From Isoetes taiwanensis (lineage: Eukaryota; Streptophyta; Lycopodiopsida; Isoetales; Isoetaceae), in assembly GCA_021234155.1 (NCBI GenBank), contig JAJEKV010000073.1:3692001-3756000 (forward strand): DNA of 64,000 bases. The letters are read 5' to 3'. Under the pieces are notes generated by a model. It did no database searches, had not been told where the DNA came from, and was given only the letters and a program-made list of their open reading frames with translations. Below are positions 9,924 to 46,690 of the stretch, one piece after another (positions within the stretch are counted from its first letter, which is position 1; each line of letters starts with the position of its first letter). The position numbers and the translations under genes are program-made.

Positions 9924-9948
9924 AATACCTGAATTTATGGACCATTTT

Positions 9949-13956: not shown

Positions 13957-14600
13957 TCAAGCCATCGAAAAGGCGTGAATGGAAAGGTGAATGAAATGAG
14001 CAGGCGTGCTTGAAGAGGTGCGAATGAGCCCGTGAATGGAAAGGCGTGATTGATAAAATCGGGTAACATCACATTTGCAGCAATTACACACATCGAGGTA
14101 TGGCGAATTTAAGCGTGGAGCAGCACAAACCTTTGGAGATCTAAGTGGCCATGAATATGAATCACTGAAGATGTTTGCGTCTTGTAGAAAAGATAGTAGC
14201 CAAACAAGGCCTTTGAAAAAAACAATGAGTTTGAAGCGCATTTACATTTAAACATGAATTCCCCAAAAAATTTGAATGTAATTTCCCCAATTTTTAAAGT
14301 TAAATGTCCCACCTAATTTGAAATAATGTGTCCGAAAGATCGGAACTTTGAAAAACGAGTTCCCGCCAAAGCACGCGGCGACACGATGCATGACTCAATT
14401 AATTTTAGGCGGGCTTTAAATGTGATTTGAAATTCAAAAATCGGCGCACTCATTATTAAGGTCCACAATTAATTCCCTCACGCTCGAAGCCATCAACGGT
14501 CCATTTTATTTCAAAGGGCCAAGCGCTTACATGCCGCGACACTTGTCTTAGCCCCCAGAGAGGTCCATAACCCTTTAAAAGCCCCTCATTCTCCTCATTG
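13957..14600. other. non-coding part of the element, copy 1
   Basis: AT-rich stretch between the dyad cluster and the first plus-strand coding-like exon. It is preserved at 37,430-38,050. No function is seen. Confidence 0.4.
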
Positions 14601-14649
14601 CAGATTTAGAAAATTCATTGCTTCTTTGGTAGCTTTGTGCTCCGCTAAA

Positions 14650-14863
14650 CATGTCGCCTTCATATTTCTTAATACGAAAGTCGTTCTCAACCGCACTATA
14701 CTCCCGAACCGGTAAACCCGGATCGAGCTCTTAGCCTTGTGTCTCTCGGCCGCTTATGCCATCATCATTGGCGCCTTCCTCTGCATTGACACCTATCGCA
14801 CGGGTACCCCCGTACACCAAAGAATTCTAGGAGTTGATGGGCATCGCCACCACCGTGGCAAAG
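14650..14863 (+). pseudogene. possible first exon of the element's plus-strand gene, copy 1
   Basis: An ATG at 14,651 begins MSPSYFLIRKSF, and the stretch ends at a consensus donor (GGCAAAG then GTAAGG at 14,864). The counterpart is at 38,090-38,315 with the same donor. Stops interrupt the frame. The exon is inferred from a conserved donor and coding-like text; the product is not recognised. Confidence 0.35.
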
Positions 14864-15169
14864 GTAAGGTGGACTACTTTCTAAATATAAACTTGGCTTG
14901 CACGATTAAGTATCCGCTATAACATCTCGGACATATGAACATCTTCTAGATGCCTCACTAGTCCCCCCAGTATGCATACGTATCGCGGATCACGAATAGA
15001 ACGCAATTGCTTCCCTTAGAGTGTTTCATTTTGCAAAACATTGGACATTGGACCCAATGTGGGCGGCGCTGATTTGCCTATCAGAGCACCAAAGTATGGG
15101 GCTTCCCGGTTGCCTATCGAGAGCGACTACCCGAGGATGGTAGACTTGGTGGGGACTAAATTGGGCCGC

Positions 15170-15470
15170 CCAATTTAGTCGACCAATCTAATCAAAATAG
15201 TCGTGCTCTCCGGAATAAACCGGGCGAAGCGTCTTTGAATAATGAATATAAATTGGGCGGGCGCCCATTTTAGCGTGGGGATTGCAAAATTGGCGCCCAA
15301 TTTAGTATCTTGGGATCTGCGGCAAGGGTGGGCGGGCGCCCAATTTGCCCCTTGTGATCAATCGTCTCCTCGGACTCAAGGCTCACCATGAGTTGGTATG
15401 ATGGGCGATGCCCAATTTGGTGTCGATGGGGATCGGGGGCAAATGGGGTGGCCAATTTGCCTCTCCATCG
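15170..15470. repeat. dyad array upstream of the element's main coding region, copy 1
   Basis: Five dyads within 250 bp (about 15,172, 15,250, 15,290, 15,333 and 15,400), several with both half-sites and a GGCGGGCG-type centre. They lie immediately upstream of the coding-like segment starting at 15,535. The counterpart is 38,612-38,925. Confidence 0.75.
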
Positions 15471-15534
15471 GACTAACAGTCTCTTCAGCCCCAAGTCTCC
15501 CAAGTACTAACACTACTTTCTGCGAGGAATTAAT

Positions 15535-18500: not shown

Positions 18501-19435
18501 TTGACTTACCAATGTTTCTAACATTTTTGTTTTCCGATCGGCTTATTGGGTATGTCGACCTTAGTGCGACAAAAGGTCGCGGCGGTGGGGAGAAGATGAT
18601 GCCGCGAATCGGTTGGAAAGTAGGGCGTGCACCTATCTGAATGCAGTTGATCTTTGAAAGGTTACCTTTGTTCACCGACTTCTTTCGGTGGTGCTTTTAG
18701 CCAGGCGGCGTGTCGCGAGGGCTATAAAACATTGTCTTTTGAGGCAGGCGAAAAAGGCTGGAAATTAAGCATGCGGATATTGAGCAACTCGATGTCATAT
18801 TTAGGCGAGAAAAATCAAGAGCTCGGGCACTCTGAGAAGATAAAGAGGGAAAAAAAGAAGGCCTCTACTTCCAAAAGGCGCTCCTCAGCCTCGACTTCAC
18901 GCCCACTGAGACACCTTGTCCGTTCTCGTCTACAACTATAAGCGAAGTGCAATCAGTTGAGCGAGGACAAGGCCTTGATTCAACTAGAGCTCAAAGGCGT
19001 GACCCTAGGCTCTCCGGTTGGAACTATTTGAAGAAAAAACAACATCAGCGCTTAGCGGCGAGGGGATGGAATTTGGTGAATACCGGGGACATGATTGAAG
19101 CGACCTCAAAGTTGAGGAAGAGGTTGCTAGGGGAGACTGACGCTGCAATGTCGTTGTCATGGAAACCTGGGGAAGGGGACAATCGGGGATGGAGAGGATG
19201 TGGTCCCCAACCACGATGGCCTGATCAAGATGTAGAAGGGAAGAGGTGGGCGAACTGAGAAAGACAATCAAGGTGCACATGATGGGAATGAGAGGCTGGG
19301 GCGAAGATTTTATGCAAAAGAATGGAATTGATCAAAGAGGCAGCACAACAACCTCACTTGACACCGGAAAGGGATCATTCGGAGAAGATGTGCCTCAGAA
19401 CCGAATGGCGACTTATGAGTTGAAAATCACGTGAA
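15535..19435 (+). pseudogene. plus-strand coding region of the element, copy 1, function unknown
   Basis: Open blocks in shifting frames match the copy 2 blocks at 38,999-42,850. They comprise a basic N-terminal block (RTKFAKAIAIECKRKRKK, about 15,570-15,640), a Ser-rich low-complexity block (SLSSSSSSRTA, about 16,435-16,470), a block with KKPLTD-like charged text around 17.8-18.0 kb, and a lysine-rich block near 18,840-18,880. No catalytic motif is identifiable. Stops and frameshifts are more frequent than in copy 2. It may encode one or more element proteins. Confidence 0.35.
17165..17345. repeat. dyad cluster, copy 1
   Basis: Half-sites GCCCAATTT and related strings at about 17,182, 17,210, 17,250 and 17,320-17,343, in a stretch without convincing coding. 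The counterpart is 40,629-40,792. Confidence 0.6.
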
Positions 19436-20741
19436 ATATGTTAATAACAATTGTTCATACTTCTTTTTTGAAATGATAGCGTTGCACTCATTTTCCTTGT
19501 CTTAAATTTCTCTAGTTTACTTTGCTAACCAAATTGGTAGCGAATTTGGCTAACCCCCACAAACTATAGCCTTTTATTAAATTTATTTGACTTGGCTATC
19601 CTCCATGATGCAAATAGGGTGGAGCCCAATTTCTTGGCAATAAGCGCCATCAAACTTATGAAGTGAAGTGGGCTGCGAGAAAGCGATTGGAGATCAAAAA
19701 GCGGGACCCTCGGGAATTTTTCAGTGCGTTACATTATATAATATTGACTATGCTTATTACATCCTTACAACATTATTATATCCTTATCGGCATTAACATA
19801 TCAGAGTGTACAAAGAGTCACTGCGTCGTCAGCGCCCTGAGAAGCGTGCCATTGACTCAAAGATCTGGCGGTCGGAAGCCAATATCTGGTGGACCTCAAC
19901 GCGAGTGAGCTTCCGCAATTACTCGCGAGTCCATGCTTTGGACTGGAGCCATGGATCAAGACTAACACCAGTCATATAGCACTGCAAATATCGTTGTAAC
20001 TCAAGTAGCGCGAAGGATCGGATGTTCTCGGACGATCAGGCAAAGGAAGCCATGAGAGATGAATCTGATGGATTTTGCTTTTATAAGCGTGAAAATTATT
20101 GATGTCAATTATTGGTACATACTAAGCGCAACATGTAGCCGTATAAGGTACCTACGCCTATCCCGCCTTTGATTGGGTGGCCGCCCAATTTAGCGCATCC
20201 TCGATATGAGCATTCAAGGGGGCAAAGGGGTGAGCCCAATTTCCGCGGGACATGTTGGACAAGTTGCACATATAGAAGACAAGTTGTACTAATACTTTAT
20301 CTCATAGATGATTCTGATCCCGATTACAACAAGATGACAAGCGTTCATTTAGGGGACTCTTGAGTCATTTTCACGAGCACCGGTGATCTTCTCTATCATG
20401 TACATTTGATGCTCTCTATTCCATATCGGATGGATGATAGCGTCAAAGGGATCGGGGATAATGCGAGGATTTAGGCGAGTGTGGTCATCGGTCTTCCATG
20501 GGTATCTCGCTCGCGGCCTTTGCTTGAAGTTTTAAGTGATTCATCTTAGGTTGATGGAATCACGTTGGGGTTGACCGAGACCACATGGCTAAAGCGAAGG
20601 CCAAATTTGATGGTCAAAATTGGTTTGAGATATATTTATACCCACAATCATTATTGAAGGTATTTATGCATAAAGATTATTGGATGTACGTATATACAAC
20701 CAATAATCTTTCCTCTCGATAGTCATCAATAATTCCTTGGC

Positions 20742-21351
20742 TATAAATATAGCTGCATTCGGCCTTCTTTGACACATTCGTACCATGTCTGCGCCATCTT
20801 CCACGGGCCCCATGTTGACACCCTTACTTGCCTTATGACCTATGGCCCGATCTTTATGCTGCGAGGTTGAAGGGATCTCTCACCGATCCACGGGCGTATG
20901 GTATAGCCTCTTGGTGAAAGAAAGACTCCCCGTGAGTATCATGTTACTATCCATATTATTATTGGGTTCAGATGCCTTGAGCTTTTTGAGATTAATAGAA
21001 TCACCAATAATTACAATCTATGACTCATGTATTTCATAACTTTATATGATATGATGATGTAAGCGTATTTGTGCATGATTCTGTTGTTATGTTTGAGTTG
21101 TTGTTATCTTGATTTACGATCTACGTTTTTTTCTCGTTTTCCTTTTTGCAAGCAAGAAGGAAAGTGGGCGAGGCCTTAATTTTTCTGAAAGTGGAAGCCT
21201 TCATGAAACTACCCGAGGCCATCACGAAGGGGCAAAGTCGGCTGACGCCCGGTTTGGAGGAGACTATTCAGAAAAAGAAAATGGAAAAAGGCCAATTTCC
21301 GGAAGGAAAGTGGGCGTGCCCAATTTCCTCGGGGAGGCCTCCATGAAATAA
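20742..21351 (+). pseudogene. TATA box and last plus-strand gene of the element, copy 1
   Basis: TATAAATA at 20,742-20,749 lies about 35 bases upstream of an ATG at 20,785 (MSAPSSTGPMLTPL). The same layout occurs at 44,186 and 44,229 in copy 2, where a longer open frame follows. A stretch near 21,150-21,350 includes dyads within coding-like text, ending at GAAATAAGATATT. The product is unknown and the frame is broken after about 16 codons. Confidence 0.4.
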
Positions 21352-22285
21352 GATATTCTTGTTAGAAATTACCGCGTCATTGGGATGTTCTCATGCCAGA
21401 CAAAAACATTCTATTCACATAGGAATGGAGTACATGGATGGATTACGTGAATAATAATATCAACTAAACAACATCATTCGAAAGCATAGGTTGAACGGAA
21501 TGACAATAGATAATAATAGATAATATTAAACATGGGCGTTTTGGTCAATATCGGTTCCATAATTAGATCCCCGGTTGGAACTACATTGATATGTCTTGTC
21601 GTGATCTGAGATCCGACCAGTCATCCAATTACGCCATCCCGGATAGAAGTCTTTGAGGATGAGTTTGATTACCAAAGCCACCTGTTTGCCTCTTTTCCTT
21701 CTTGTAAAGCTTCTTAAACAGCGCCCAGGAAAGTGTTGTGCAGCCAAACATCCTCCATTTTCAGCAACCTCTTGAGCTTACTGCCTGTAAATATGGCGTT
21801 TCAGGAAATCAAAGCGACCTTCCAGCTCTGCTAAAGGTCATCGGCTCATCGCCATCCTTCATCAACTCTCCGCGGCGAATAGGCTTCTGAGTTGGCTTCT
21901 CATTTCTTACATTGCCATTTTGGTTTATCGTTACGCACCTCAACTTTTGAAGCTGATTAGCATGAGCTAATATTGGCTCGGCGATATGTACTTGCATTTC
22001 GCTCATTGTGAATCCATAAAAGCTGCTTTGGTTGGACCATTCGGCGAAGCCGCGAATATGAATCTACACTATCACCCGGTTTCTGCGAATGCGGAACAGC
22101 GTGGCGAACCGTCTACAGAAGGCGGCTTGCGAGACACAAACTTCGGTTGGCACTTTTGTGCTTTATAGATACAAGGCACGCCATCCCACCTACACGCACA
22201 CATTCGAAAATTAGCATCATTCTACTAAATAAAACCCTTATTTTCTAAAAATGGTACATTTGGGAGTCATATGGACTCGGCCAAA

Positions 22286-22310
22286 GTCCACAATAATGAG
22301 GGGTATGCTT
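22286..22310 (-). repeat. right terminal inverted repeat of the element, copy 1 (altered)
   Basis: GTCCACAATAATGA...ATGCTT corresponds to the right end at 45,739-45,763 but has internal changes (GGGG in place of AATT). TTGT follows at 22,311-22,314. Confidence 0.7.
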
Positions 22311-23190
22311 TTGTCTTCAATCGAGTTAGCGTGAAGATATGGTCAATGGTTGGTCGCGGGGTCTGAATCTGCACACGGGTGAGGTCCGCACCTCTGCTTT
22401 GCCTCACGCCCGACCGATCAAGCTGCTGCTTTCGAGAATCCCGGCAAAGCGGTTTGCAAACGCCGGCCTGACCATGATTGTTGGTAATTTTACAGGCGGT
22501 GTGGGTCCTGCCTTATAGATGGGAACAACTACGCTATTAGTCCCGCTGCGTGGGGAAGCCTTCTGTAATGCCTTGTTGAACAAAGGCGGTCATGCCCCGG
22601 TTTTATAAACGGCCACGCCCCTTAAGCAATGCAATGCGCATACCATCCAGTGCGGGGCTTTTCATTGGCAAAGGTATTTGTAAGCCTTGTTCCGCGTCCG
22701 AATCTGTGATTTCCAGCACTAGGCCTTCTTCGCGGTATCTTTGCATGTGCACCTTGAGGTCGTATAGCTATTGCAAGTATTACCTCCTCGCTTTCGGGAG
22801 TGATATTCCCTGTGGTACATCGCGGCTTTCTAAGAACCCTTAGCCAAAGGTCACGGGGTGGCGTTCGGAGGTAAAACATTTCCCTTTGATGCGTTGCAAT
22901 GTACCTAGCTTTCTTAGCTTTAATGAAGGCGATGATGCTGTCATTTGCATGTGAAGTGGCGAGTGCGTGACTTGGCGAGGGCGGCGTTTGTGTTCCTTGC
23001 ACTGCATCAAACCATTGATTACATGGGAAGGTTGTGTTCACGGAGGTCCATTCGCGGGCTTATCCCAAAAGCACCTCTGCCCGCAGATCCTAAGCACATC
23101 CGGTCGGCCGGCATGCATTTGCTCTAGTGTGGGAAAATGCGCGGGGCACGCCATCTAGCCACAGCAATTATGTGGCACAAATATCTTCAA
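22311..23190 (-). mobile_element. LINE 5' half, copy 1
   Basis: The minus strand encodes the linker and the first reverse transcriptase motifs, continuing into the 3' half at 8.3-9.9 kb once the 12.4-kb element is removed. A segment with TTFPCNQWFDA (about 22,990-23,020) and FIKAKKARYIA (about 22,890-22,930) matches copy 2 at 46.3-46.55 kb. The endonuclease domain is absent, so the LINE is 5'-truncated. CTG/CAG positions of copy 2 are replaced by CG-containing strings here. Confidence 0.75.
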
Positions 23191-34300: not shown

Positions 34301-34314
34301 GTCATAAGGTGTGC
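34301..34314. other. duplication junction with about 14 bp of filler
   Basis: Left of it is the end of copy 1 (AAAAAGGTAAG, as at 57,915-57,925). Right of it is TATAAAACCC, as at 10,865. The bases between (GTCATAAGGTGTGC) match neither parent continuation well. No long homology is present at the join. Confidence 0.7.
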
Positions 34315-34514
34315 TATAAAACCCTTCCAATCCTAATCCTTTGTCAACAACATAGTGGGACTCCGTGTAATTCAAGTTGCATTTAGGAATTCATACAAAG
34401 AGTTCGCATTGTGAGCACCAACTCTCCTACTTTTAAAGAGTGTAGAGAAGTTAACAAACAAGGCATCGAGATCATCATGTGTGTGACAAGATCATGAACC
34501 CTAGCTCAATCTCT

Positions 34515-36400
34515 TCAAACACACCAAGATATACTAGGTAAGAAAGATAGAGAAGACATACCTATTCTTGTTCTCATTCGGCCCGTGCGGCTTGTCCACC
34601 TAGGGGTCATAAAGTATCTTAAGTAGGCTTCAATGATGGTCCCCGTGTTCGCGGGCAAATTAAAGGTGCATGCCGGTATTGATAGTGACAACTTTTTGAC
34701 TCCAAGGCCGCTGTGTCTCGAATGAGGAGACCCATTTTGAGCGATGATTCGTGACCGACAGTGGCCTCCTCGCATACTGCGTCTCCATCTCTAATCTCTT
34801 CAAGATGCTATTCAAAGAACCTACATGGAAGTTGGAGTCATCTCACCATAAGTCCGTAAAAAGTTTCCATAAGATCCATTCCCATGACCATGAGTCAATG
34901 CACCACCAATGTCGTTTTGGTTTGTCAAGTCTCCGTGAGAGACTTTACGATTGTTGCAATTTTGGAATCATTGTTTTGGCTTGATCCATTTTGTCGCGGA
35001 ATAATACAAAGATATTGGTCGATACCCGCGGGGAGTATAATCTCCACGCATCAGCATCGTGCGCATTAACAGGCCTCGCTTCCGCCTATGCGCTTCTTCA
35101 TCATGCAACATCCTCCTCTCCTTCATCTTTGGTCTTCGCGAACTTCAGATTGATCACCACATGTATCGTGATTGAGAATGCAATTTTCTTTTGCGAGCAT
35201 CGACGCCCCGGAAACTCCGCCCACGTTTATGAAAACCTCGTTTGTGATACCTTCTTTGCCGCCAATGCCACAACCTCTCAAGATAACCTCTTCTAGAATG
35301 CCGACTTCGTAAACATTGCTGCGTGCAACTTCCCCGACATTCTCTTATCCCTCCTCGCTTCTCTTGCTACTTTGCAAGGATTCACCGCTCTCCCTCACGG
35401 TAACATGGAAAACACGGCCTCACATGCCAACGCCGAGGAGCCGGTGGCTTCAAGGTGCCACGCTACCATGTTCGGGCTTTTTGCGGCACCCTCAAGAAAT
35501 TGGGCCTTCCATTTCAGATACATACTTTGAGATCCCGAGACCAAGGTACCACGCCTTTCGCAAAAACGAGATTCCCCGCAAAGACCACGCCGCCCCACTT
35601 CTTCGACCTTTCATGTTGTTGGCTTAACATGTCATAAACAAAAGTAACCCTATCACTTGATTTCATGGCAAGGAATTCCTTTCGTGATGTTAACAACTTG
35701 ATTCCTAGAGAACCCGACACAACACCTATTCTTGCAACACAAGGTCCTCCCCGTAAGTGAGGATAGCATTCGAAAGTGGTGAGACGAAAGCAAGCTTTTG
35801 GTGGCCTAACAACCTTCCCCGGGTTGTCGGAATGAAAAGTGTAATGTCGCTTTCTCATAATTTGGGTGCTTCGATGCTCGAGCCCCCTGGCCGACACAAT
35901 ATCCCGCTTCCCCGCTATGCGTGTTGCGGTCAATATCTCCGGTGACCTTTACTCCGTCAAACACAGACGCAGGTCATTGCTCCATCTCACGAGCATGCCC
36001 GGCCGCACTGCAGCAACCCCGCAACGGATGTTCACTTCAAAAGGGGAGGGAAACCTTCGCCATGTATACTCCCACAAACTTGAAACCCGTAAACCGGGTC
36101 ACAAATCGCATCATCGGGCCGAAAGATATGAATCCCTTTCCGCAATAATGGAGTCGCATGAGTGCCATATCTCACAATCCTTTTCAAGAAGGGTATATCT
36201 TGTCACGGGTTGTGTCTCCTTCCCCACCGCCCAAATAAGGGCTTTGCCGGGACGCCATTAGCGCATCTACACCACGCAGCATCTTCACTTCTCCACGTAA
36301 TCCAATGAGCCCCGGCTTCTCGCTATTGTGGTTGCATCCGAGTTGGCCGTGAAGGGTGTGGTGGCCTTCGAACACTTCCTCCACACCTACGCCAAGAGTC
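34515..36400 (-). pseudogene. minus-strand gene of the element, copy 2, function unknown
   Basis: The best-preserved block is 35,933-35,514 (139 open codons), containing GGPCVARIGVVSG and EFLAMKSSDRVTFVYDM. Upstream (about 36,040-36,140) lies a block with RFTGFKFVGVYM, and downstream are blocks matching copy 1 (HVGSLNSILKRLEM region, about 34,790-34,840). The family is not recognised. The 3' end of this gene is lost because the duplication breakpoint falls inside it. Confidence 0.45.
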
Positions 36401-36583
36401 CTTTCATATCTCCTTGAAGTGGCATTGTGTCATTTGCCCCACAACCCCTTTGCTACTAGATGTTCATTAAGGAAGAGATACACAACCCGCACAAGGATTT
36501 CGTAGTGTTAAAATCGAAAGTAAGGAAGACGAAAAGCAATGCAAATGACCTGGGGACTCCCATTCAATGGTTACAAGGATAAT

Positions 36584-37107
36584 AAAATTGGGCGGTGCCC
36601 TTTTACGATGAGGTGTTTAGATTCCCCTTGTATAAGGTTAGTATTGATGCAAAGTGAGTCTCACAATGGGTAGAAAAGAAGGTTCTCACCGGAAGAGGTT
36701 ATATTCACAAGACAAATTGGGCTCCCACCAATTTGTTCGTGGTGGTGGTAGAGGAGCCGTAAAGTAGGCACAACACTTCTACCCAATTTAGCCGCCACCA
36801 AGAGAAAACACATTCGAGATACAAATGGCCCAATCTTTACACAGCCACCTATCTGGTCATGTACGTAAAGGGACAATATGGGCGATCGCCCAATTTGTCC
36901 CATTGTTGCAATTGGGCGGCTAATTTGAACCGAATCAGCGCTTTATATAAGGGTATTATTGATGCAAATACCGGCCTCACAATGGGTACAAAAGAAGGTT
37001 GTCGCTCGAAAGCAGATATATCCACAAGACAAATTGGGCGCCCAACTATTTGTTCGTGGTGGTTAAAGACCAGTGAAGTAGGCGAGACTCTCTACCGCCC
37101 AATTTAG
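36584..37107. repeat. dyad cluster with 318-bp tandem repeat, copy 2
   Basis: Seven dyads at about 36,584, 36,713, 36,775, 36,877, 36,909, 37,031 and 37,094, spread over two tandem units that each begin CTCACAATGGGTA (about 36,660 and 36,978). The 36,877 copy reads GGGCGATCGCCCAATTT, so both half-sites are visible. Confidence 0.75.
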
Positions 37108-38089
37108 TTGTCACCAAGATAAAACACCTTCGAGATACGCTTTGCCCATCCCAAGTAAAGCTTTACCCGTCACCTACACATACACACTAAGAGAACTAAG
37201 GAGGCATTAACTAACCGAATTTATCATTGAGCTCCCAAAACAAATACAATCGAAAGCATTGGAAGGGCCTCGACTACAAACAAGGGTTAATGGAGAAAAT
37301 AGCAGTACACAAACTCGCATGACAATTTCAGAAAAGGGCGACCGCATCGAAATTTAGAGTTTATGTAAATGTGACAAAGAACTGTGTGAACGAGGAGGAG
37401 TAAATCAAGGGTCAAGCCATCAAAAAGGCGGAATGGAAAGGTGTGAATGAACAGCGCGTTTGAAGAGGTGCGAATGAACAAACCGCGGAATGGAAAGGCG
37501 GATTGATAAAAATCGGGTAACATCACATTTTGCAAAAGAATTACACATCGAGGTATGGCGAATTTAACTGGGAGCAGCACAAACCTTTGGAGATCTCGTA
37601 CATGAATATGAATCGCCAAGATGTTTGCGCCTTGTAGAAAAGATAGTAGCCAAACAAGGCACCGCCAAAAAACAACAGTGTTTGAAGCGCATTTACATTT
37701 AAACATGAATTCCCCCAAAATTTGAATGTAATTTCCCCCAATTTTAAAGTTAAATGTCCCACCTAATTTCGAATAATGTGTCCGTCCCTAACTTTGAAAA
37801 ACGAAGTTCTCAAAAGCACGTATTAATGCATGACTCAATTAATTTTGGCTGGCTTTAAATGACGATTTGAAATTCAAAAAATCCGCAAGACTCATTATTA
37901 AGGTCCACAATTAATTCCTCACGCCAAGCCATCAACGGGTCATTTTTATTTCAAAGGGCCAAGCGCTTTACATGCACGCATACACTTTGTCTTCCCAAGA
38001 GGTCCATAACCCTTTAAAAGCCCCTCATTCTCCTCGACCGCAGATTTAGAAAATTCGCGGCTTTTTGGCGCTTTGTGTTCGCTAAACAC

Positions 38090-38315
38090 CGCCGCCTTCA
38101 TATTTCTTAGCCACGAAAGTCGCTTCTCAGCCAAGACTATACTCCGAACCAAATTGCCGGCTTTTGATCGAGCTTGTGGCTTTTTGTGTGTCTCTACCGC
38201 TTGTCGCCATCCCGCATGCCTTCCTCCCTCAGATTGACTCTATCGCCGGGTACCCCTCAGACACCAAGGAATTCTAGCAGCTGATGGCATCTCGCCCACC
38301 ACCCAAGTGGCAAAG
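38090..38315 (+). pseudogene. possible first exon of the element's plus-strand gene, copy 2
   Basis: Corresponds to 14,650-14,863 and ends at the same donor (GGCAAAG, then GTAAGG at 38,316). The ATG of copy 1 is replaced by CACCGCCG in this copy and stops interrupt it. The product is not recognised. Confidence 0.3.
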
Positions 38316-38611
38316 GTAAGGTGGACTACTTTCTAAATATAAACTTGAGCTTGCCCTCGATTAAGTATCCCGCTATAACATCTCTGACATATGAACATCT
38401 TCTAGATGCCTCACTAGTCCCCACGCATGCATACCGTATGCGAACCCAATAGGGCACCCAATTGCTTCCCCTTAGAGTGTTTCATTTTGCAAAACATTGG
38501 ACATTGGATTCCAATGTGGGCGACGCTTCAGCTTTGTTTATCCCCGACACAAAGTGGGACGCCAGTTTATCCCGGAGAGCACGAGCCATTCGATGGTAGA
38601 CTTGTCGACTA

Positions 38612-38925
38612 AATTGGGCCACCAATTTAGTCCCACCAAGTCTACCATCCAAGGTAGTCGCGGGTCGATAGGCAAAACCGGCCCCCCACTTTGGTGTCGA
38701 GGGATAAGTAAATTGGGCTCATTTTAGTATGAGGGATTCGGCAAAATTGGGCGCTTCAATTTAGTATGCGTAGGGATCTGGCAAAATTGGGCGGGCGCCC
38801 AATTTGGCCCCTGTGATACAATCGTCTCCTCAGACTCAAGGCTCACCATGAGTTGAGCCGAGGAAATTGGGCGTGCGCCCAATTTGGTGTGCGTGGATCG
38901 TGGCAAATTGGGCGGCTTCAATTTG
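38612..38925. repeat. dyad array upstream of the element's main coding region, copy 2
   Basis: Six dyads in about 310 bp, at 38,612, 38,711, 38,742, 38,783, 38,863 and 38,905. The 38,783 and 38,863 copies are complete: AAATTGGGCG, then GGCGCCCAATTT or TGCGCCCAATTT. The short spacers share GGGATCTGGCAA-like text. Coding-like sequence begins at 38,999. By position it could be a binding array for an element protein. Confidence 0.8.
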
Positions 38926-38998
38926 CCTCCATCGCATTCTTGCCTCTTCAGCCCCAAGTCTCCCAAGTACTAACACTACTTTCCGCTCGCAGAATTAA

Positions 38999-39440
38999 TA
39001 TGGCGCCAACAAAGCAGATCGCCGTTCCCCTGCACCGACCCAAATTTGCAGAGGCTATTGCAATAGAGAATGCAAGAACGTAAGAAGAGAAAGATCCGCT
39101 TGTCGGGCATCCGTGTTGTGCCCCATGAAGTTTTGACGGTTGTCGGACGAATGGGTCCGTGCATAGAGATAGGGAATATTCATCCCGGGTCCCGCACAAA
39201 CCACCTCAAGGATCTTCTCGCTTTGGCAAGATAGGGGCAGAAAAAATGAATTCGCCGGGTATCGCCATCGACATGGAGGTGTCGCCGCATGAACAATGAT
39301 GACTTCCTCATCGACGTTGAAGACACCGTAGATCGGACTTTTGTCCGCTATAAAGTTCCACTATCTAAGTACGAGCCATGTATGATGAACGCAAGTATAA
39401 AGGAAAGCCCACATTCTTTGGCCGTAAAGGATGGGCGCTG
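38999..39440 (+). pseudogene. element plus-strand coding segment 1, copy 2
   Basis: Starts at ATG 38,999 (MAPTKQIAVPLHRPKFAEAI). Another block, about 39,290-39,430, reads NNDDFLIDVEDTVDRTF and continues VRYKVPLSKYEP. Both are conserved at 15,535-15,640 and 15,820-15,910. The block junctions are frameshifted. No family is recognised. Confidence 0.4.
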
Positions 39441-39759
39441 ACTCATATGAAAGTTTAGAGCGGGCATCAAATCAAGAACTGATATTTTGATGGCTACTAC
39501 GCCGGCCGACGCTGGATATTAGAGCACAAACGTAACAGTCGAAAAGCAATCGCTCACGAGTATCGTGGCAAAACCAACCTAAAGTGTATGATACTAAGTG
39601 GCTTAAGTCTAGATACAAGAAAGGTGAGACAAAGATTGCCGGGCGGGGCAACAAAAATGGAGCCCGACACGCCAGTCAAGAAGGCGAGGACACCGCTAAG
39701 GCTATTCACCGTAAAGTCGCCACTAAACTTATATTCTAAGGAATGAAGAGAACATCAAG

Positions 39760-40440
39760 GTCGCCTCGATGCGAAAAGAAGAGACCAGCCGCCCAAGAGG
39801 AACCCCTAAGCGCATGGGAAAAGATTTAGGTGGTCCGGTCGAAGAGGCGCAAGCGGACGGTGTTATCACGCGAGCCCAAAAAACGGAGAGGGAGTCCTTG
39901 TCTTCTTCTTCATCCGAACAACCGGAGAGTAGCCGGCAGATCGTGAAGTTCACTCCATCCGGTGGCTTACGCCACCGAGAGAGCGTATTATGAGTTGTCA
40001 CAAAGCCATAGCAAGCATCAAGCACGTGGAGAGAATCTACCCTTCGGGGTGGGCTTCGAGATTGAAGTCGATGTGTTCAAGATGCATAAAGCCCCCGCAA
40101 AATATGACTTGTAGGGTCATAAGTCCGTAGAGCACTTGGACACTCTCTACCTAATCGCTTATCAGCCATCGATGCACCCTCCCCGCGTTGATGTCGCGGC
40201 CGCTCGATCCACGCATTGCATGCAGCAATAAAGTGGAAGAAGTCGAGGATCTGCAAAATGCGTAATACCGATTGTTAATGGCAACCATACGACCACCTGC
40301 TGCTCAACCGCTTGTCACACAAGCTTTGGCATGGCCTCCTCGAAAGGAAGCACTTGGCGTAACTGATATTCTTTTCTATGCCAAAAGGAAATGCCGAAGT
40401 CCCGGCAGAAATCTCACAAAGAATCGAAAGTACGCTCGTA
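39760..40440 (+). pseudogene. element plus-strand coding segment 2, copy 2
   Basis: A charged, Ser-rich block (RESLSSSSSEQPESS, about 39,885-39,930) is followed by FGVGFEIEVDVFKMHKAP (about 40,045-40,100). The latter is also present in copy 1 near 16,590-16,650. Interrupted by stops. No function can be assigned. Confidence 0.4.
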
Positions 40441-40628
40441 AGCCGAGAATAATGACATAACAAAGAAGACTATACACGAGGAAGTATTTTTCAAGAAATT
40501 CAGCCAGCCTTCGCAACCAATGGGCATTCTACGAAGCCACGTAAGGGCAAACGCGGGCACTGGCCGTCGGGGAGCGTGATTCTGTAAGTGCACTACCACC
40601 ATTACTAGTTCCCAAGCATCCACAAGTT

Positions 40629-40792
40629 CAAATTGGGCTCAATTTTCGCCAAATTGCTGGCACTCTTTTCAAATTGGGGGCTCAATTTCCTAACGGCCGA
40701 AATAGGGCGCCCAATTTCGAAACGTTTCGAAATTGGGCTCACCAGCTTAACCTCGAAAGTGTCGGATGATCTGAAATTAAGGCTTCAATTTG
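40629..40792. repeat. dyad cluster, copy 2
   Basis: Five partial or complete dyads (about 40,629, 40,670, 40,702, 40,730 and 40,774), the third with both halves (GGGCGCCCAATTT). It lies between coding-like segments. Confidence 0.7.
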
Positions 40793-40859
40793 CGCCACCA
40801 TCGCAAGCAAATTAAGATGATGTGTATGCGCTTTATCCGTGCCTTCTTTGTCATGCAGA

Positions 40860-41484
40860 TTGGAAAGTCAGAAGGCCAAGAAACGATTAAGAAGTCAACT
40901 ATGCGTGACTACTTACTACTTTGTATATCTTGACGACGAAGTCGCGGAATATGTGCACCGGTTGCCCGCTTATTCTAATAAGACCGGGTTGAAGGACTAG
41001 AAGGGAGAAAAAATTGAGGTGAAGGATAGGCTTAGACTTTTCACCAATAATTCCCGTCCGCCTATTAAAGTCCATGCATCCTCTAGATCCGCAAAGGTCA
41101 GCCAAGGAGATCAAGGATGGCACCACATTCCCTGGCGGGAAGCAAGGATTATACCGGGAGACGACTATGAAAGTCGAGCCTGAGTCAAGAAGATTGGAAC
41201 AATGGAGCGGGCCCTTGTCGATACATGAAGGAGTGAAGAAACTTCCTTTTCAAGACATGGCTGCCTTGAGGCAAGCTCACCCCATATTCACGGAGAATCT
41301 GATGCTTATGTTCGCAAGTAGCATCGCGGATGGGCGTAAGGACGAAAAGAGATGGAGAAGGAAAGCTTTCCCGAGTCCCTCTACAAAGAAAGTAGACGAA
41401 TATCTTCTAGGGCCGGTTGAGGAGGGTGGCAAACCTTTCAAGTGTTTCCACGCTAGTCCGGAGGTTTGTGCGTGGACGGGGTAA
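40860..41484 (+). pseudogene. element plus-strand coding segment 3, copy 2
   Basis: The longest clean open stretch on this strand of the element is 41,074-41,484 (136 codons). It contains HPIFTENLMLMFASSIADG and KKVDEYLLGPVEEGGK. It is conserved in copy 1 at about 17,620-18,040 but broken there. I see no catalytic motif. It may be part of a structural or DNA-binding protein, but that is a guess. Confidence 0.45.
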
Positions 41485-41593
41485 ACACTTCGCCCCGCTT
41501 CATTGGATGCGACTTCAGATATAATGAAGAAATGGCCAAAGGAAGATTATGAAAAATTCCTTGACCAAAGCACGATGATGGACCAGCCAGCTT

Positions 41594-42850
41594 TTACCGG
41601 GTAGCTATATTTATTACCCCGCATCGCCTCAATGAGTGCCTATCCGCCATGAAGACAATAGACGGTGGCAGTACCGTGTTTGGGTTGGTTCCTACCAGAC
41701 CCCCTACCGTAATCGCCACTACCTCTAGAGTTCGAGAGTTGCAATGTCTTGTCCTCGCTAATGTATGTTGCCGAGACGAAATGCTACGCCATCGCGACAG
41801 AAATAAATATTTGCTTCGCCAATTCCCACCATCCAAAGCAATATGCTAAGTTTCCCAAGCATTTACGAAAAAAACAGACATCGAAAAGAATTTGCCCGAT
41901 CACGAAAGTGTGCAAAGCAGGTATGCATTTTAAATTGGGCCCGCCAATTTGCTTGTTGACTATCAATGTTTCTAACATTTGTTTTCCGTGCAGCTTATTG
42001 GTCAGTATCGACCTTGGTGCGACAAGGGTGCGGCAGTGGGGAGGAGTACCGGTGCGTAATCGGTTGGAAAGTAGGACGGCACCTATCTAGTACGGGTTGA
42101 TGCCGAAGGTTGCACCGTTTCTCGACTTCTTTTCCTGGTGCTTTTAGCCGAAAGGCAAAGCAGCGAGGGCTATAAAACATTGTCTTTTGAGACGACGAGA
42201 AGCTGGAAATTAAGCTTGTACAGATATTCGAGCAACTCGATGTCATGTTAGACGAGAAAAAAATCAAGAGCTCTGCACTACGTAAGATAAAAGAGGGAAA
42301 GAAGAAGGCCTCTACTTCCAAAACCGCTCTCAGCCTCAGCTTCCCCCTCGAGACACCTTGTCCGCTCGCCTACAACTATAAACGGTGCAATCGCCTCGGA
42401 CAGACAAGAGCGATTCAACTAGAGCTCAAAAGGGCAAATGCCCTAGGCTCTCCGGATTTGGAACTATTTAGGCGAAGAAAAACAACATCAACGACCGGGC
42501 AGGGATGGGACCGGTGAATACTGTGACATGATTGAGGCGACCTCAAAGTTCGAGGAAAGAGGTTGCTAGGGAGCCCGACTGCCGCTGTCATGGAAACACA
42601 GAAGGGGACAATCAGATGGAGAGGATGTGGTCCCCAACACGATGAGCAAATAAGATGTAGAGGAAGAGGTGGCGAACACGTAAGACAATCAAGGTGCACA
42701 TGATGAGAATGAGGAACTGGGGTCCAAGATTTTATGCAAAGAATGGAATTGATCAAAGAGGCAAAGACAACAACCTCAGCCCCAAAAGATGGAGAACCCA
42801 AAAGGGATCATTCTAAGATGTGCCTCCGCATCTAATGAGCGAATTTATGA
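41594..42850 (+). pseudogene. element plus-strand coding segment 4, copy 2
   Basis: Open blocks include MKTIDGGSTVFGLVPTRPPT (41,649) with VIATTSRVRELQCLVLANV, and a basic block with KIKSSALRKIKEGKKKAS (about 42,255-42,310). A dyad sits at 41,933. Copy 1 has the same order at 18,180-19,435. The lysine-rich tail suggests nucleic-acid binding by composition only. Confidence 0.4.
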
Positions 42851-42963
42851 GTTGAAAAATACGTGAAATATGTTAATAACAATTGTTCATACTTTTTTTT
42901 TCGAAATGATAACGCTGCACTCATTTCCTTGTCTTAAATTTCTCTAGTTTACTTTTGCTAACC

Positions 42964-43065
42964 AAATTGGGCTCAAATTTGGCTAACCCTTACAAACTAT
43001 AGCCTTTATTAAATTTATTTGATTCTCGCTATCCTCCGGCAAGAAATTGGGCGGGCGCCCAATTT
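42964..43065. repeat. dyad pair, copy 2
   Basis: Dyads at 42,964 (AAATTGGGCTCAAATTTGG) and 43,043. The latter is complete, with GGGCGGGCGCCC at its centre. Confidence 0.75.
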
Positions 43066-43608
43066 ACTGGCAGAGTAAGCGCCATCAAACATGAAGTGAA
43101 GTGGAGCTGCAGAAACAGTGGAGATCAAAGAGCAGACCCTCAGGAATTACTCAGGCACGTTACATTATATAATATTGACTATGCTTATTACATCCTTACA
43201 ACATTATTATATCCTTGTCAAGATTAACATATCCGAGTGTACAAAGAGTCACTCGTCGTCAACGCCTGCCAAGGCGATGCCATTCAGCTCAAAGATCTGC
43301 TGATCAGGAAGCCAATACAGGTGGACCTCAACACGAAGTGAGCTTCCCCGCAATTACCGCAGTCCATCCGCTTTGACCGAGCCATGGATCAAGACTAACA
43401 CCACCATATAGCACCGGGCAAATATCGCTGTAACTCAAGTAGCACTTGAAGGATCGGATGTTCTCCTGACGATCCCGCAAGGAAGCCATGAGAGATGAAT
43501 GCAAAGGGAGCCGCTTTTATAGGCGGAGAAATTATTGATGTCAATTATTGGCGCATATACTAGCGCAACATGTAAATCAGATATAAGGTACACCTATATA
43601 CCACGCCG

Positions 43609-43682
43609 AAATTGGGCGGCCGCCCAATTCTCACAAGATCATACGATATGAGCATTCAAGGGCAAAGTGGGCTGCCCAATTT
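43609..43682. repeat. dyad pair, copy 2
   Basis: A perfect palindromic centre GGGCGGCCGCCC at about 43,614-43,625, flanked by AAATT and AATTC, and a second copy at about 43,667 (GTGGGCTGCCCAATTTC). Confidence 0.8.
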
Positions 43683-44185
43683 CACTCGACATGTTGGACA
43701 AGTTGCACATATAGAAGACAAGTTGTACTAATACTTTATCTCATAGATGATTACAACCGATTACAACAAGATGACAAGCGCTCATTTAGGGGACTCTTCC
43801 GAGTCATTTTCACCGTGCACCCCAAATGATCTTCTCTCATCATGTACATTTGATGCTCTCTATTCCATATCGATGGATGATAACGCCAAAGGGATCGTGA
43901 TAATGGCGAGGATTTAGAGCGAGTGTGGTCATCCGCCTTCCATGGGTATCTCTCGCCAAGAATCGCTTGAAGTTTTCGCGGATTCATCTTGCGCTTGATG
44001 GAATCACGCTCGTGACCGACCGAGACCACATGGCTAGACGAAGGCCAAATTTGATGGTCAAAATTGGTTTGAGATATATTTATACCCACAATCATTATTG
44101 AAGGTATTGTACGCAAAGATTATTGGATGTACACCGTATATACAACCAATAATGCCGCTACAAGAGTCATCAATAATTCCTTGGC

Positions 44186-44429
44186 TATAAATATAGCCGA
44201 TTCGACGCCACAAAGACATTCCGCCGCCATGTCTCGCCATCTTCACAGCCCCATGTTGACACCCTTTACTTGCCTTATGACCTATGACGATCTTTATGCT
44301 CATGAAGTTGAAAGGGATCTCTCTCGATCCCCTCGGCTGTATGGTATAGCTACCGGTCGAAAAGAAAGACTCCCCTACGAGTATCATGTTACTATCCATA
44401 TTGTGTGGGTTCCTGAGCGAGGCTTTTGA
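44186..44429 (+). CDS. TATA box and last plus-strand gene of the element, copy 2
   Basis: TATAAATA at 44,186-44,193 is followed by ATG at 44,229. The open frame continues to 44,429: MSRHLHSPMLTPFTCLM, then YDDLYAHEVERDLSRSP and a C-terminal HVTIHIVWVPERGF. The TATA-to-ATG spacing is the same in copy 1. A donor-like GTGAGT in copy 1 at about 20,931 suggests the exon ends near 44,385, so the last residues may be intron. The product is unknown. Confidence 0.4.
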
Positions 44430-44590
44430 GATTAATAGAATCACCAATAATTACAATCTATGACTCATGTATTTCATAACTTTATATGATATGATGATGT
44501 AACCGTGTTGTGCATGATTCTCGCTGTTATGTTTCGCTTGTTATCTTCTGGTTCGATCTACGTTTTCTTTTCCTTTTGCCCTCAAGAAGG

Positions 44591-44763
44591 AAAAGTGGGC
44601 GGGCTTCAATTTTCCTCGAAAGTGGAAGCCTTCATGAAACTACCTTCGTGCCATCCGAAGGGCAAAGTCTCGCGACGCCCGGTTTGACGGAGGAGACTAT
44701 TCCCGAAAAGAAATGGGCGGGCTTCCAATTTCCTCCTCGAAGGAAAGTGGGCGGCGCCAATTT
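44591..44763. repeat. dyad cluster near the right end, copy 2
   Basis: Three dyads (44,591, 44,711, 44,744) with GTGGGCGGG-type left halves and CAATTTTCC or CCAATTTCC right halves. They lie within coding-like sequence about 1 kb from the right terminus. Copy 1 counterpart is 21,165-21,335. Confidence 0.7.
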
Positions 44764-45738
44764 CCTCGGGAGGCCTCCATGAAATAAGATATTACTGTTC
44801 GAAATTGCACGCCATTGGGATGTTCTCAATGTAGACAAAAACATTCTATTCACATAGGAATGGAGTACATGGATGGATTACGTAGATAATAATATCAACT
44901 AAACAACATGCGTCGAAAAGCATAGGTTGAAATCGTAATGACAATAGATAATAATAGATAATATTAAACATGGACGTTTCAAATAATATCCGGGGCCCCA
45001 CCGCAATTAGATCCCCCAGTTGGAACTCGATATGTCTTGTCGGCAAAGATGAGATCCACCCGGTCATCCAATTACGCATCGGATAGGGAGGCCGAGGATG
45101 AGTTTGATTACCAAAGCCACACGCCGCCTTTTTCCTTCTTGTAAAGCTTCTTAAACAACGACCGGAAAGTGTTGTGCAGCCAAACATCCTCCATTTTCAG
45201 CAACCTCTTCGAGCTTCCGCCTCAGAAATATGGCGTTTCAAGGAAATCAAGCAGCCTTCCAGCTCTACCCCTCAAGTAAGGTCATCCGCTCATCGCCATC
45301 CTTCATCAACTCTCCACGACGAATGAGCTTCCCGAAGTTGGCTTCTCATTTCTTACGTACCATTTTGGTTTATCTCGCTTCACGCACCTCAACCCGGAAG
45401 CCGATTCGCATGAGCTAATATTGGCTCGGCGATATGGCACCGCATTTCGCCATTGTGAATCCATAGCCGCGCTGGTTCTGGACCATTCTCGACCGCACAC
45501 TAATATGAATCTACACTATGCGATTTGCGAATGCCTACCGGGCGTGGGCGAGACCACGCCTCTGTATAAGCCATTGGGCGAGACACAAACTCGGTTGGCA
45601 CTTTTTGTGCTTTATAGATACAAGGCCTGCCATCCCACCTACCTGCACACATTTCGAAAATTCGCATCATTCTACTAAATAAAACCCTTATTTTCTAAAA
45701 AATCGGGTACATTTGGGAGTCATATGGACTCGGCCAAA

Positions 45739-45763
45739 GTCCACAATTAATGAAATTATGCTT
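45739..45763 (-). repeat. right terminal inverted repeat of the element, copy 2
   Basis: GTCCACAATTAATGAAAT...GCTT is the inverted partner of 9,899-9,923 with two mismatches in 25. TTGT (45,764-45,767) follows. Confidence 0.85.
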
Positions 45764-46690
45764 TTGTCTTCAATCAGAGTTCGCAACGTGAAGATATGGT
45801 CAATGGTTGAGTGCGAGGGTCTGAATCCTGCCTGGGTGAGGGTCCGCACCTCTGCCGCCGCTCGCTTGACCATTCAACCCAACCGCCCGAGAATCCCAAA
45901 AAGCGCTTTTGCAAACACCGAACTGACCATGATTGTTCGGTAATTGGCTGGGCAGTGTGGGTCACCTGCCTTATAGATGGGAACAACTCTGCTATTAGTC
46001 CACTGCAGCGGGAAGCCTTCCTGTAATGCCTTGTTGAACAAGGCGGTCAGCACTGGTTTTATAGACGGCCCTGCCCACTTAAGCAATTCTGTCTGCATAC
46101 CATCCAGGTCTGGGGCTTTTCATTGGCAAGACGCTGTAAGCCTTGTTCCACGTCCGAATCTGTGATTTCCAGCACTAGGCCTTCTTGCAGAGGTAATGCT
46201 GCATGTGCACCTTGAGGGTCGTATAGCTATTGCAAGTATTACCTCCACTGCTCGGGAGTGATATTCCCTGTGGGCTGTACTGGCTTTCTAAGAACCCTTC
46301 GCCAAAAGGTCCTGGGGTGACGTTCCAGGAGGTAAAACATTTCCCTTTGATGCGCTGCAATGTACCTAGCTTTCTTAGCTTTAATGAAGACGTGGTACTG
46401 TCTGACTGCATGTGGGCGTAAAGCAGGGTCTGTGACTTGGCGGAGCCAGCGTTTGTGTTCCTTGCACTCTGCATCAAACCATTGATTACATGGGAAGGTT
46501 GTGTTCCTGGAGGTCCGTCGCAGGCGGCTTATCCCAAAGCACCTCTCTGCCGCAGTCCTAAGCACATCAGTCAGCCGGCCTGTCTGTTGCTCTAGTGTAG
46601 GAAAATTGCAGGGCCTGCCATCTAGCCCTGTAATTATGTGGCACAAATATCTTCAATGTGGAACACAGGTAGGAAATGAAATCCTTCACT
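45764..46690 (-). mobile_element. LINE 5' half, copy 2
   Basis: The minus strand carries a long open block 46,646-46,239 with NTTFPCNQWFDAECKEHK and FIKAKKARYIAAHQREMF, the region between endonuclease and reverse transcriptase in plant LINEs. Then come VVPIYKAGDPHCPANYR (RT motif, about 45,950-46,010) and GFRPSHSTIDHIFTLRTLIE (about 45,775-45,835). It stops at the element insertion point. No endonuclease domain precedes it, so the LINE is 5'-truncated near 46,690, next to the 3' end of gene A. Confidence 0.85.

Follow-up and report, generated by a model that had tools for sequence, protein, structure and literature searches.

An array of short palindromes inside a mobile element raises the question of which protein reads it and to what end. 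Such arrays were noticed in a 64-kb stretch of the genome of the lycophyte Isoetes taiwanensis (the window; contig JAJEKV010000073.1), where a preliminary description reported many copies of one CG-rich dyad between coding-like blocks.

The window element and its palindromes

The arrays belong to a DNA transposon of 12.4 kb, larger than the extent first given to it, with 25-bp terminal inverted repeats (TIRs) and a 4-bp target-site duplication (TSD; TTGT). It is very abundant in the genome, and encodes a DUF7869 transposase and a second, divergent gene (gene 2). The window holds two copies (Table 1). Copy 1 is flanked by TTGT at 9895-9898 and 22311-22314, while copy 2 is missing its left ~1 kb because the breakpoint of a 23.4-kb tandem duplication falls within the element (window self-BLAST, 10864-34179 vs 34314-57786, 86%). 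A degenerate TIR pattern has 379 matches in the genome and its control has none. Of six insertions checked, five have a 4-bp TSD (CTAT, TTAT, AATG, ATTA and, in the window, TTGT), and L015/L016 has none. The TIRs, the TSD and the DUF7869 transposase rule out an LTR or viral element, and a CACTA element is excluded by the 4-bp TSD and by the ends, which start AAGCA. The transposase assignment comes from the related L011 ORF, which matches DUF7869 at 6.6e-40; the name is absent from the literature searched.

Table 1. Positions of the transposon copies, their genes and their palindrome clusters in the window
Feature	Position	Strand	Basis or remark
Copy 1, full length 12.4 kb, decayed	9899-22310		Ends are where 5 other genomic copies cease matching
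Left TIR, 25 bp	9899-9923	+	Degenerate TIR pattern
Transposase remnant (DUF7869), copy 1	10528-12149	-	tblastn with L011 and L017 ORFs
Copy-1 equivalent of 36.6-37.1 kb cluster	13119-13590		Half-site scan
Copy-1 equivalent of 38.6-38.9 kb cluster	15158-15458		Half-site scan
Gene 2, copy 1, decayed	15463-18563	+	tblastn; blocks 15463-16293, 16535-17215, 17654-18563
Copy-1 equivalent of 40.6-40.7 kb cluster	17182-17343		Half-site scan
Right TIR, copy 1, decayed	22286-22310	-	TIR/TSD inspection
Copy 2, without left ~1 kb	34314-45763		Window self-BLAST; right end from other genomic copies
Transposase remnant (DUF7869), copy 2, truncated	34315-35610	-	tblastn
Dyad/half-site cluster, copy 2, 5' of transposase gene	36585-37105		Half-site scan
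Densest dyad cluster, copy 2, directly 5' of gene 2	38611-38913		Exact N4 dyads at 38784 and 38864
Gene 2 first coding block, copy 2, decayed	39000-39743	+	tblastn with L002 ORF, motif scan
Gene 2 second coding block, copy 2, decayed	39947-40766	+	tblastn with L005 ORF
Dyad/half-site cluster between gene 2 second and third coding blocks, copy 2	40630-40738		Half-site scan
Gene 2 third coding block, copy 2	41103-42024	+	tblastn; homologue of L026 gene 2
Dyad cluster 3' of gene 2, copy 2	42964-43065		Exact dyad at 43044
Second dyad cluster 3' of gene 2, copy 2	43609-43682		Dyad and half-site scan
Half-sites close to right end, copy 2	44592-44752		Half-site scan
Right TIR, copy 2	45739-45763	-	Right flank TTGT, same as copy 1

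The dyad itself is real, since exact AAATTGGGC-N4-GCCCAATTT occurs 3,296 times in the genome of 1.66 Gb and its reversed control not once. Noise or an assembly artefact is excluded as its source by exact occurrence at thousands of genomic places. With at most one mismatch, copy 2 has 37 half-sites and copy 1 has 32, whereas the remaining 40.0 kb of the window has 10, so the motif is not equally frequent outside the element. Full N4 dyads with at most three mismatches number 10 in the two copies together and zero in the rest of the window; none appeared in 20 first-order Markov simulations of the element. The dyad also survives in a consensus of 12 copies of the family, which holds 8 dyads with at most three mismatches (3 of these exact) and 46 half-sites with at most one.

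The half-sites are paired at spacers of 0, 1, 2, 3 and 4 bases (9, 5, 8, 6 and 10 pairs, respectively), and also stand singly. Thus, the 4-base centre of the preliminary description is the commonest arrangement among several, and its length of about 22 bp suits a subset only. The six clusters that it placed in copy 2 are recovered by the half-site scan, with four additional single half-sites outside them (35497, 37736, 41932 and 44044), and the densest does lie directly upstream of the plus-strand coding region, stopping ~90 bp before the ATG. Coding boundaries are taken from ORFs, not transcripts; the cluster between the second and third coding blocks, which the 3' end of the second block overlaps, probably lies in an intron.

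Palindromes and gene 2 in related transposons

To see how general the arrays are, 16 other DUF7869 loci were sampled from 150 listed of 9,908 first-look candidates, six being picked by score or ORF length and ten at random from the remaining list. A repeated palindrome (at least four identical arms, against at most one in 60 simulations of each locus) is present in 14 of them; below this threshold, L035 has two arms and L036 one, with no array seen within 3.6 kb in the latter. Besides the window motif (W), these loci carry five further versions, and the six fall into about four sequence groups: A/A', B, D and W/C. Those of the first three groups have no spacer. Exact genome-wide counts, with patterns of 16 to 22 bases, are 3,296 for W, 4,415 for A', 1,810 for B, 408 for C, 184 for D and 13 for A; all reversed controls give 0.

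In loci with readable genes, most arrays are found 5' of gene 2 and between its coding blocks. Those of families A and B are situated between the two divergent genes, and in L021, L023, L024 and L025 also between the ParB-like and methyltransferase exons, while L022 has no array between gene-2 exons. Among the matches listed (contigs C1-C97), six of seven methyltransferase matches have an exact B dyad 0.9-1.7 kb on the 5' side. In L044, 12 exact dyads form two regular arrays, one of them just 5' of the gene-2 start.

The W dyad is exact in relatives whose DNA is 66-86% identical (aligned stretches >60 bp). Of six W clusters examined among the matches listed, five share DNA with the window element, some only 140-430 bp, and the L032 cluster has none in common with it. 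Among the 12 copies of the window family, conservation at non-CpG dyad positions (0.916) does not exceed that of the remaining positions (0.925), which gives no hint of selection acting on copies once inserted. Decayed CpGs are 8 of 146 inside dyads vs 186 of 1,199 within 100 bp, a difference that is a hint only, because the alignment is gappy at dyads and 17 sites count.

In families A and B, gene 2 contains a significant N6/N4 DNA methyltransferase domain (PF01555 at 5.4e-15 and 2.7e-16), and the nearest solved structures include MboIIA, CcrM and RsrI. Beta-class N6A/N4C DNA methyltransferases are characterised by motif I, FxGxG, and motif IV, (D/N/S)PPY, which are represented here by DAFSGSGTT and by the variant DIPY/DLPY, with one P replaced. 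Methyltransferase and transposase are found within 15 kb of each other in 24 pairs, vs 0.4 by chance (a further 9 pairs are 15-200 kb apart). Of the close pairs, 22 are divergent (head-to-head), with the methyltransferase 5' of the transposase. The ParB label of these proteins comes from sub-threshold DUF6551 matches (E 0.009-0.03) and the published description of a similar protein. In family C (L026), gene 2 and transposase share one strand and the methyltransferase match is weak. The N-domain of gene 2 shows the greatest divergence between A and B (24-26% identity, other parts 37-64%; three alignments, one just 29 aa long). However, it also diverges within one motif class (56-89%, other parts 60-97%), and is therefore not singled out as the reader of the dyads.

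Gene 2 of the window family starts with MARTKQTARVPG in better-kept relatives and with MAPTKQIAVP in copy 2, and its N-terminus, MARTKQTAR, resembles the histone H3 tail. The best piece of the second coding block is 46% identical to the L005 ORF over 259 aa (E=7e-49). The third block is methyltransferase-like with degenerate motifs (hhalign, weak match): the link consists of a weak profile match (P=5e-4, probability 30%) and a motif-I-like stretch, LDFFSGGAFSR, the sole beta-class motif found. A PPY-type motif IV was not found in this gene, nor was a significant Pfam methyltransferase match. Pfam gave sub-threshold matches only on plus-strand ORFs of the family's copies, and a PDB sequence search with the gene-2 ORFs of L011, L009 and L021 gave matches at E>=0.13. 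Profile homology of the N-domain and of the proposed ParB-like part to families A and B is unsupported (P=0.32 and 0.34). Codon periodicity, compared between the 12-copy consensus and L030, yields no clear coding frame, probably because indels blur the signal.

Possible functions of the arrays

The palindrome arrays may be a self-recognition system that jumping genes use to escape silencing. We lean towards the view that they are family-specific targets of a transposon-encoded protein, most likely the gene 2 product, with a VANC/VANDAL-like anti-silencing role. The preliminary description had proposed a binding array for either an element-encoded or a host protein. The former is favoured, because related families put other palindromes at similar places and an accessory gene adjoins the arrays. 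The protein would act as a dimer on the paired half-sites. From its sites in the control region and within gene 2, it would most likely keep the element's chromatin open or marked as 'self' and so shield it from silencing by the host, the role that VANC proteins have in VANDAL elements. Where gene 2 carries a methyltransferase, the effect could come from N6-adenine or N4-cytosine methylation of the transposon. For the window family, whose methyltransferase motifs are degenerate, a different activity of this protein might serve, possibly its histone-H3-like N-terminus.

It is tempting to extend this view, although the extension is unlikely as it stands: each family would pair a palindromic address of its own with a sequence-specific reader that it encodes, and the W reader would show a copy of the H3 tail (ARTKQTAR) at its free N-terminus. 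On dyad-bound dimers, this tail would serve as a decoy for that of a nucleosome at the element's control regions, recruiting or occupying host readers and modifiers of the H3K4 tail and thereby blocking silencing. If true, a DNA transposon would have evolved histone mimicry, alongside a self-methylating version of the system in sister families. A literature search on H3-tail mimicry in transposons found nothing of this sort in titles and abstract openings.

Distinctly unlikely, but first among the alternatives, is that the transposase itself binds the dyads as internal assembly or regulatory sites and that gene 2 has nothing to do with them. Repeated subterminal motifs are bound by transposases in other superfamilies, every sampled locus was found via its DUF7869 transposase, and this protein has diverged to 49-55% identity between motif classes A and B. 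However, the arrays are internal, concentrated at gene starts and between coding blocks. In the window element, 2.1 kb separate the left TIR from its nearest exact half-site, and the last half-site is ~1.0 kb short of the right end, although a one-mismatch half-site at 9901 falls within the left TIR. Families A and B, moreover, are similar in placement and different in motif.

Slightly less probable again is the recruitment of host factors, such as transcription factors or insulator proteins, with different ones for each family. The clusters are located where promoters would be, but several host proteins with 14-22 bp specificity would be needed to account for six palindromes, in about four groups, at ~10,000 exact sites. 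The arrays could also be functionless selfish tandem repeats spread by slippage. Their regular units, of ~42 bp (B, D) or 68-73 bp (L044), do indicate tandem expansion, and the conservation among fixed copies given above fits this reading. We nevertheless consider it improbable, since palindromes recur at similar gene positions across the sampled loci and the same dyad is kept exact among relatives whose DNA has otherwise diverged. Hairpins or cruciforms in DNA or transcripts (e.g., small-RNA sources or structural elements), also suggested at first and in keeping with the palindromic form, are very doubtful because spacers vary from 0 to 4, half-sites occur singly, A/A', B and D have no loop, and bases are fixed within a family where structure alone would not require one sequence.

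Comparison with known transposons

The element-encoded protein that we favour has precedents in VANDAL elements and in a Sola-1 transposon. In En/Spm (CACTA) elements, the element-encoded TNPA binds a repeated short motif and counteracts silencing; the motifs are subterminal and ~12 bp long, the TSD is 3 bp and the ends are CACTA. This comparison, made in the preliminary description, is a poorer match, because the transposase, the TSD (3 vs 4 bp) and the internal position of the palindromes differ, as do the ends (CACTA vs AAGCA).

VANDAL elements are closer in layout, with three differences. Firstly, their transposase is of the MULE type, whereas the present one is DUF7869. Secondly, their motifs are 8-9 bp long, in contrast to palindromes of 14-22 bp. 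Thirdly, the accessory protein of families A and B is of methyltransferase type, unlike that of VANDAL, and anti-silencing is proposed here by analogy. In the excerpted text of PMC5735166, the non-coding DNA of Arabidopsis VANDAL21 and VANDAL6 (introns, intergenic and terminal regions) is described as holding short motifs, often tandem, that are bound by protein, and so the statement that no described element has this layout does not hold. Like the present elements, they are multi-gene and their related families differ in motif (excerpts of PMC5735166; PMC10398659). Here, too, the arrays lie in non-coding parts, with coding bounds from ORFs, and the motif changes between related families. Sequence-specific anti-silencing of the VANC type has been worked out in detail for one group of Arabidopsis transposons, and Isoetes would, by analogy, offer an unrelated transposase superfamily with the same logic at large scale in a lycophyte. 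One genome offers ~10,000 exact copies of six palindromes, with placement and accessory genes comparable between families, so that the long-standing question of how a mobile element recognises itself and changes that recognition becomes directly testable.

Sola-1 transposons have a 4-bp TSD, the length found here. Sola1-1_Ec32 of the brown alga Ectocarpus is described, in the excerpts of PMC12477816, as a giant Sola-1 DNA transposon of 21.5 kb whose accessory gene runs on the opposite strand to the transposase and is predicted to encode a ParB-like and N4mC/N6mA methyltransferase protein. Both it and the present elements are large, with the accessory gene divergent from the transposase (in A and B), a likeness judged on the description. 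For that gene, A and B have the significant PF01555 match and mostly divergent pairs, but a ParB match below threshold; in the window family and C, the methyltransferase match is weak, and in C the gene shares the transposase strand. The same excerpts make no mention of repeated binding sites, and in them the authors suggest that such ParB-methyltransferase proteins may bind to the transposon that encodes them and modify it (PMC12477816). The Isoetes arrays are a concrete candidate target for this idea and, if gene 2 reads the dyads, the families would be a natural set of long-palindrome DNA-binding specificities.

The window element and its dyad

The element in the window extends from 9899 to 22310 (12.4 kb; limits set by five further copies with their flanks) and ends in imperfect terminal inverted repeats (TIRs) of 25 bp. 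A 4-bp target-site duplication, TTGT in the window, accompanies five of the six insertions examined, and none was seen at the sixth (loci L015/L016). The left-end minus-strand gene encodes a DUF7869 protein (6.6e-40 for the open reading frame, ORF, of a related locus, L011), and the element is probably Sola-1-like. In the genome searched (1,658,258,908 bases in 1,110 contigs), a degenerate TIR pattern has 379 matches and its control none; among the 100 matches listed, at least 14 facing pairs lie 12.1-13.1 kb apart. A 1.2-kb core probe gave 365 candidates, with 40 scored matches at 88-100% identity. Facing TIRs also occur 2.1 kb apart on contig C334 (1203178-1205326) and 4.5 kb apart on C779 (78768-83284), and may represent derivatives with internal deletions; the pair on C779 carries the variant TTTGGAC and may belong to another family.

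The window holds two copies of the element because of a single 23.4-kb tandem duplication (10864-34179 and 34314-57786, 86% identity), and copy 2 is therefore not an independent insertion. In 500-column windows, the duplicates are 76-90% identical in the element and 79-99% elsewhere, there mostly above 90%. The stretch at 24.5-26.9 kb reaches 97-99.6%, compared with 76-90% for the transposon part, a difference that points to constraint or gene conversion in the half of the duplication outside the transposon. The CpG observed/expected ratio, 0.51 in the rest of the window, is higher within the two elements, at 0.89 and 0.95; such values are consistent with an element that is young or little methylated, although base composition could explain them. 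Two minus-strand ORFs (8691-9260 and 45877-46499) resemble, by eye, remnants of non-LTR reverse transcriptases.

The preliminary description had noted a CG-rich dyad of facing half-sites (W) repeated in clusters across the element. The dyad is confirmed by 3,296 exact copies with a 4-base spacer genome-wide, compared with none of the reversed pattern, and a half-site scan allowing one mismatch found the clusters where they had been placed. In that scan, copy 1 has 32 half-sites, copy 2 has 37, and the other 40.0 kb of the window has 10. The window has 21 exact copies of AAATTGGGC and 21 of its reverse complement, and spacers of 0 through 4 bases are all common. The 10-kb core was scanned in ten genomic copies (L001-L010), which carry 29-45 half-sites each, and five of the six dyad clusters fetched and checked share DNA with the window element. 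The element copies are decayed (non-CpG identity to the consensus about 0.92), and among these fixed copies dyad positions are no better conserved than the rest (0.916 vs 0.925). This is expected if selection acts solely on active copies, and lends no support.

Palindrome arrays beside DUF7869 genes

A DUF7869 search of the genome gave 9,908 first-look candidates, of which 150 were scored and listed. Six loci were picked from the list by score or ORF length (L021-L026), and ten were drawn at random from the remainder as 3.6-kb pieces (L033-L042). The commonest 7-base palindrome arm is present in 4-16 copies in 14 of these 16 loci, in two copies in L035, and once in L036, where no repeated palindrome was found in the 3.6-kb piece. 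Simulated loci never had more than one arm copy (60 second-order Markov runs per locus), and ten 3.6-kb chunks of the window outside the element had 0-1. Since 16 loci were drawn from 150 listed of 9,908 candidates, the share of DUF7869 families bearing arrays is uncertain.

The palindrome itself changes from family to family (see the table). Exact genome-wide counts are 4,415 for A' (18-mer), 1,810 for B (22-mer), 408 for C, 184 for D (20-mer TGTCTATGCGCGCATAGACA), and 13 for A (16-mer), with no match to any of the five reversed controls.

Array placement was judged against gene boundaries taken from ORFs and homology, not transcripts. The arrays of L025 are placed like those of L021, and L023 and L024 likewise have arrays at two positions, one in the gap separating the divergent genes and the other separating the ParB-like exon from the methyltransferase exon; L022 has the first and none at the second position. 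In L026, clusters flank the accessory gene (gene 2) on both sides, and a third lies farther along at 8419-8921. In window copy 2, clusters are found on the 5' side of the transposase, immediately ahead of gene 2, beyond its 3' end, and in the interval from its second to its third coding block. A relative found via gene 2, L044, has 12 exact and two one-mismatch dyads in two arrays. The L044 arrays have a regular unit of about 68-73 bp, while in families B and D it is about 42 bp, or some four helical turns.

Palindromes, arrays and H3-like starts of gene 2 at the fetched loci
Feature	Locus	Sequence	Position	Remark
Palindrome A	L021, L025	GTATGAATTCATAC
Palindrome A'	L037, L038, L041	GTATAAATTTATAC		close variant of A
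Palindrome B	L022, L023, L024, L033, L034, L039; L035 weakly	AAGTGTATTCCGGAATACACTT
Palindrome C	L026	AAATGGCGCANNTGCGCCATTT		matches W at 14/18 arm positions
Palindrome D	L040, L042	CTATGCGCGCATAG
Array 1	L021		3744-4392; weaker site 3690	between divergent genes
Array 2	L021		6654-6866	between ParB-like and methyltransferase exons
Arrays	L044		290-701 and 2512-2945	gene 2 ATG at 901
42-bp unit, family B	L034		2897-3108
42-bp unit, family D	L042		1169-1500
H3-like start	L002		3265
H3-like start	L008		3278
H3-like start	L044		901	oriented
H3-like start	window		39000	decayed

The accessory gene as a candidate reader

In families A and B, gene 2 and the transposase gene are arranged head-to-head. 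The product of gene 2 has an N-domain and an acidic linker, together with a stretch similar to ParB-like domains (weak DUF6551 matches, E 0.009-0.03) and an N6/N4 DNA methyltransferase domain. The last matches PF01555 at 5.4e-15 (L021) and 2.7e-16 (L024), and its nearest structures include MboIIA, CcrM, and RsrI. PF01555 has 1,444 candidates in the genome, and the 150 scored were paired against the 150 listed DUF7869 matches. Among these listed matches, 24 pairs lie within 15 kb, compared with 0.4 expected, and nine at 15-200 kb; in 22 of the 24 close pairs the two genes diverge and the methyltransferase lies 5', and 17 of these 22 are spaced 4.9-6.2 kb. An exact B dyad is found 0.9-1.7 kb on the 5' side of six of the seven methyltransferase matches listed on contigs C1-C97; the seventh, on C29, has no exact B dyad nearby.

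Gene 2 of the window family is related to that of family C (E=7e-14) and has a motif-I-like LDFFSGGAFSR. It may be methyltransferase-like and is probably not catalytic; confidence in this is low, because profile comparison with the A/B methyltransferase gives a weak match (P=5e-4, probability 30%), no PPY-type catalytic motif is seen, and homology to A/B was not supported for its other parts.

Such an accessory gene is not new, since a Sola-1 transposon of Ectocarpus encodes on its opposite strand a 1,104-aa protein with ParB-like and methyltransferase domains. These algal proteins have been suggested to bind and modify their own transposon, with earlier green- and red-algal reports cited, and the passages on the Ectocarpus element do not mention repeated target sites (PMC12477816). 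VANC proteins are described as acting through 8-9 base motifs in the non-coding DNA of VANDAL elements, removing silencing marks (PMC5735166; PMC10398659).

The preliminary description took the dyads for a binding array of an element-encoded or host protein, or a source of hairpins. Binding by an element-encoded protein is the part kept here, and it is extended to self-recognition of the VANC/VANDAL kind. The arrays differ in their long palindromes yet occupy similar positions next to one type of accessory gene, as would be expected if every family had a reader and an address of its own, the two changing together. We lean slightly towards the product of gene 2 as the dyad reader, which might bind the facing half-sites as a dimer; the benefit to the element would be escape from silencing. 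The system would resemble VANC/VANDAL in self-recognition, but the window element is not a member of that group.

A histone H3-like N-terminus

Read from its first in-frame ATG, gene 2 begins with MARTKQTARVPG in L002, L008, and L044, and the same peptide is present in L030, a locus fetched for its dyads; L044 was ascertained by the peptide, while L002 and L030 were not. The peptide is decayed in L004, L009, and the window copy. It includes ARTKQTAR, which is identical to residues 1-8 of histone H3; should the H3-tail reading hold, the system would be far more novel. In an ungapped comparison of L002 with L044, nine of the ten codons 2-11 differ and every change is synonymous; in the 22 codons that follow, 16 encode a different amino acid. 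MARTKQ is absent from L021-L026 and from the short pieces L033-L042, with loose matches in L022 and L039 alone.

A DNA pattern for MARTKQTARVP matches the genome 233 times and its control never; among the 100 matches listed, at least 14 have the spelling of the window family and at least 11 that of L044. Three other spellings were fetched. In L046, no ORF of 80 aa runs from the match, while ORFs in L045 and L043 begin with MARTKQTARVP, that of L045 with no Pfam match. The L043 ORF (856-2148, 431 aa; C907:27955199-27958198) combines a complete H3 histone fold (Pfam 4.4e-24; PDB H3 1.7e-24) with a long charged insert, the H3 match spanning the fold and not the residues of the N-terminal tail. 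A Ty3-type gag ORF (2716-3000; Retrotrans_gag 2.3e-13, Ty3_capsid 4.2e-07) follows at a distance of 0.6 kb, and L043 would be a retroelement that may bring along an H3-like histone. That VP follows ARTKQTAR in both kinds of element suggests that the tail was passed from one to the other, or that both took it from a single source.
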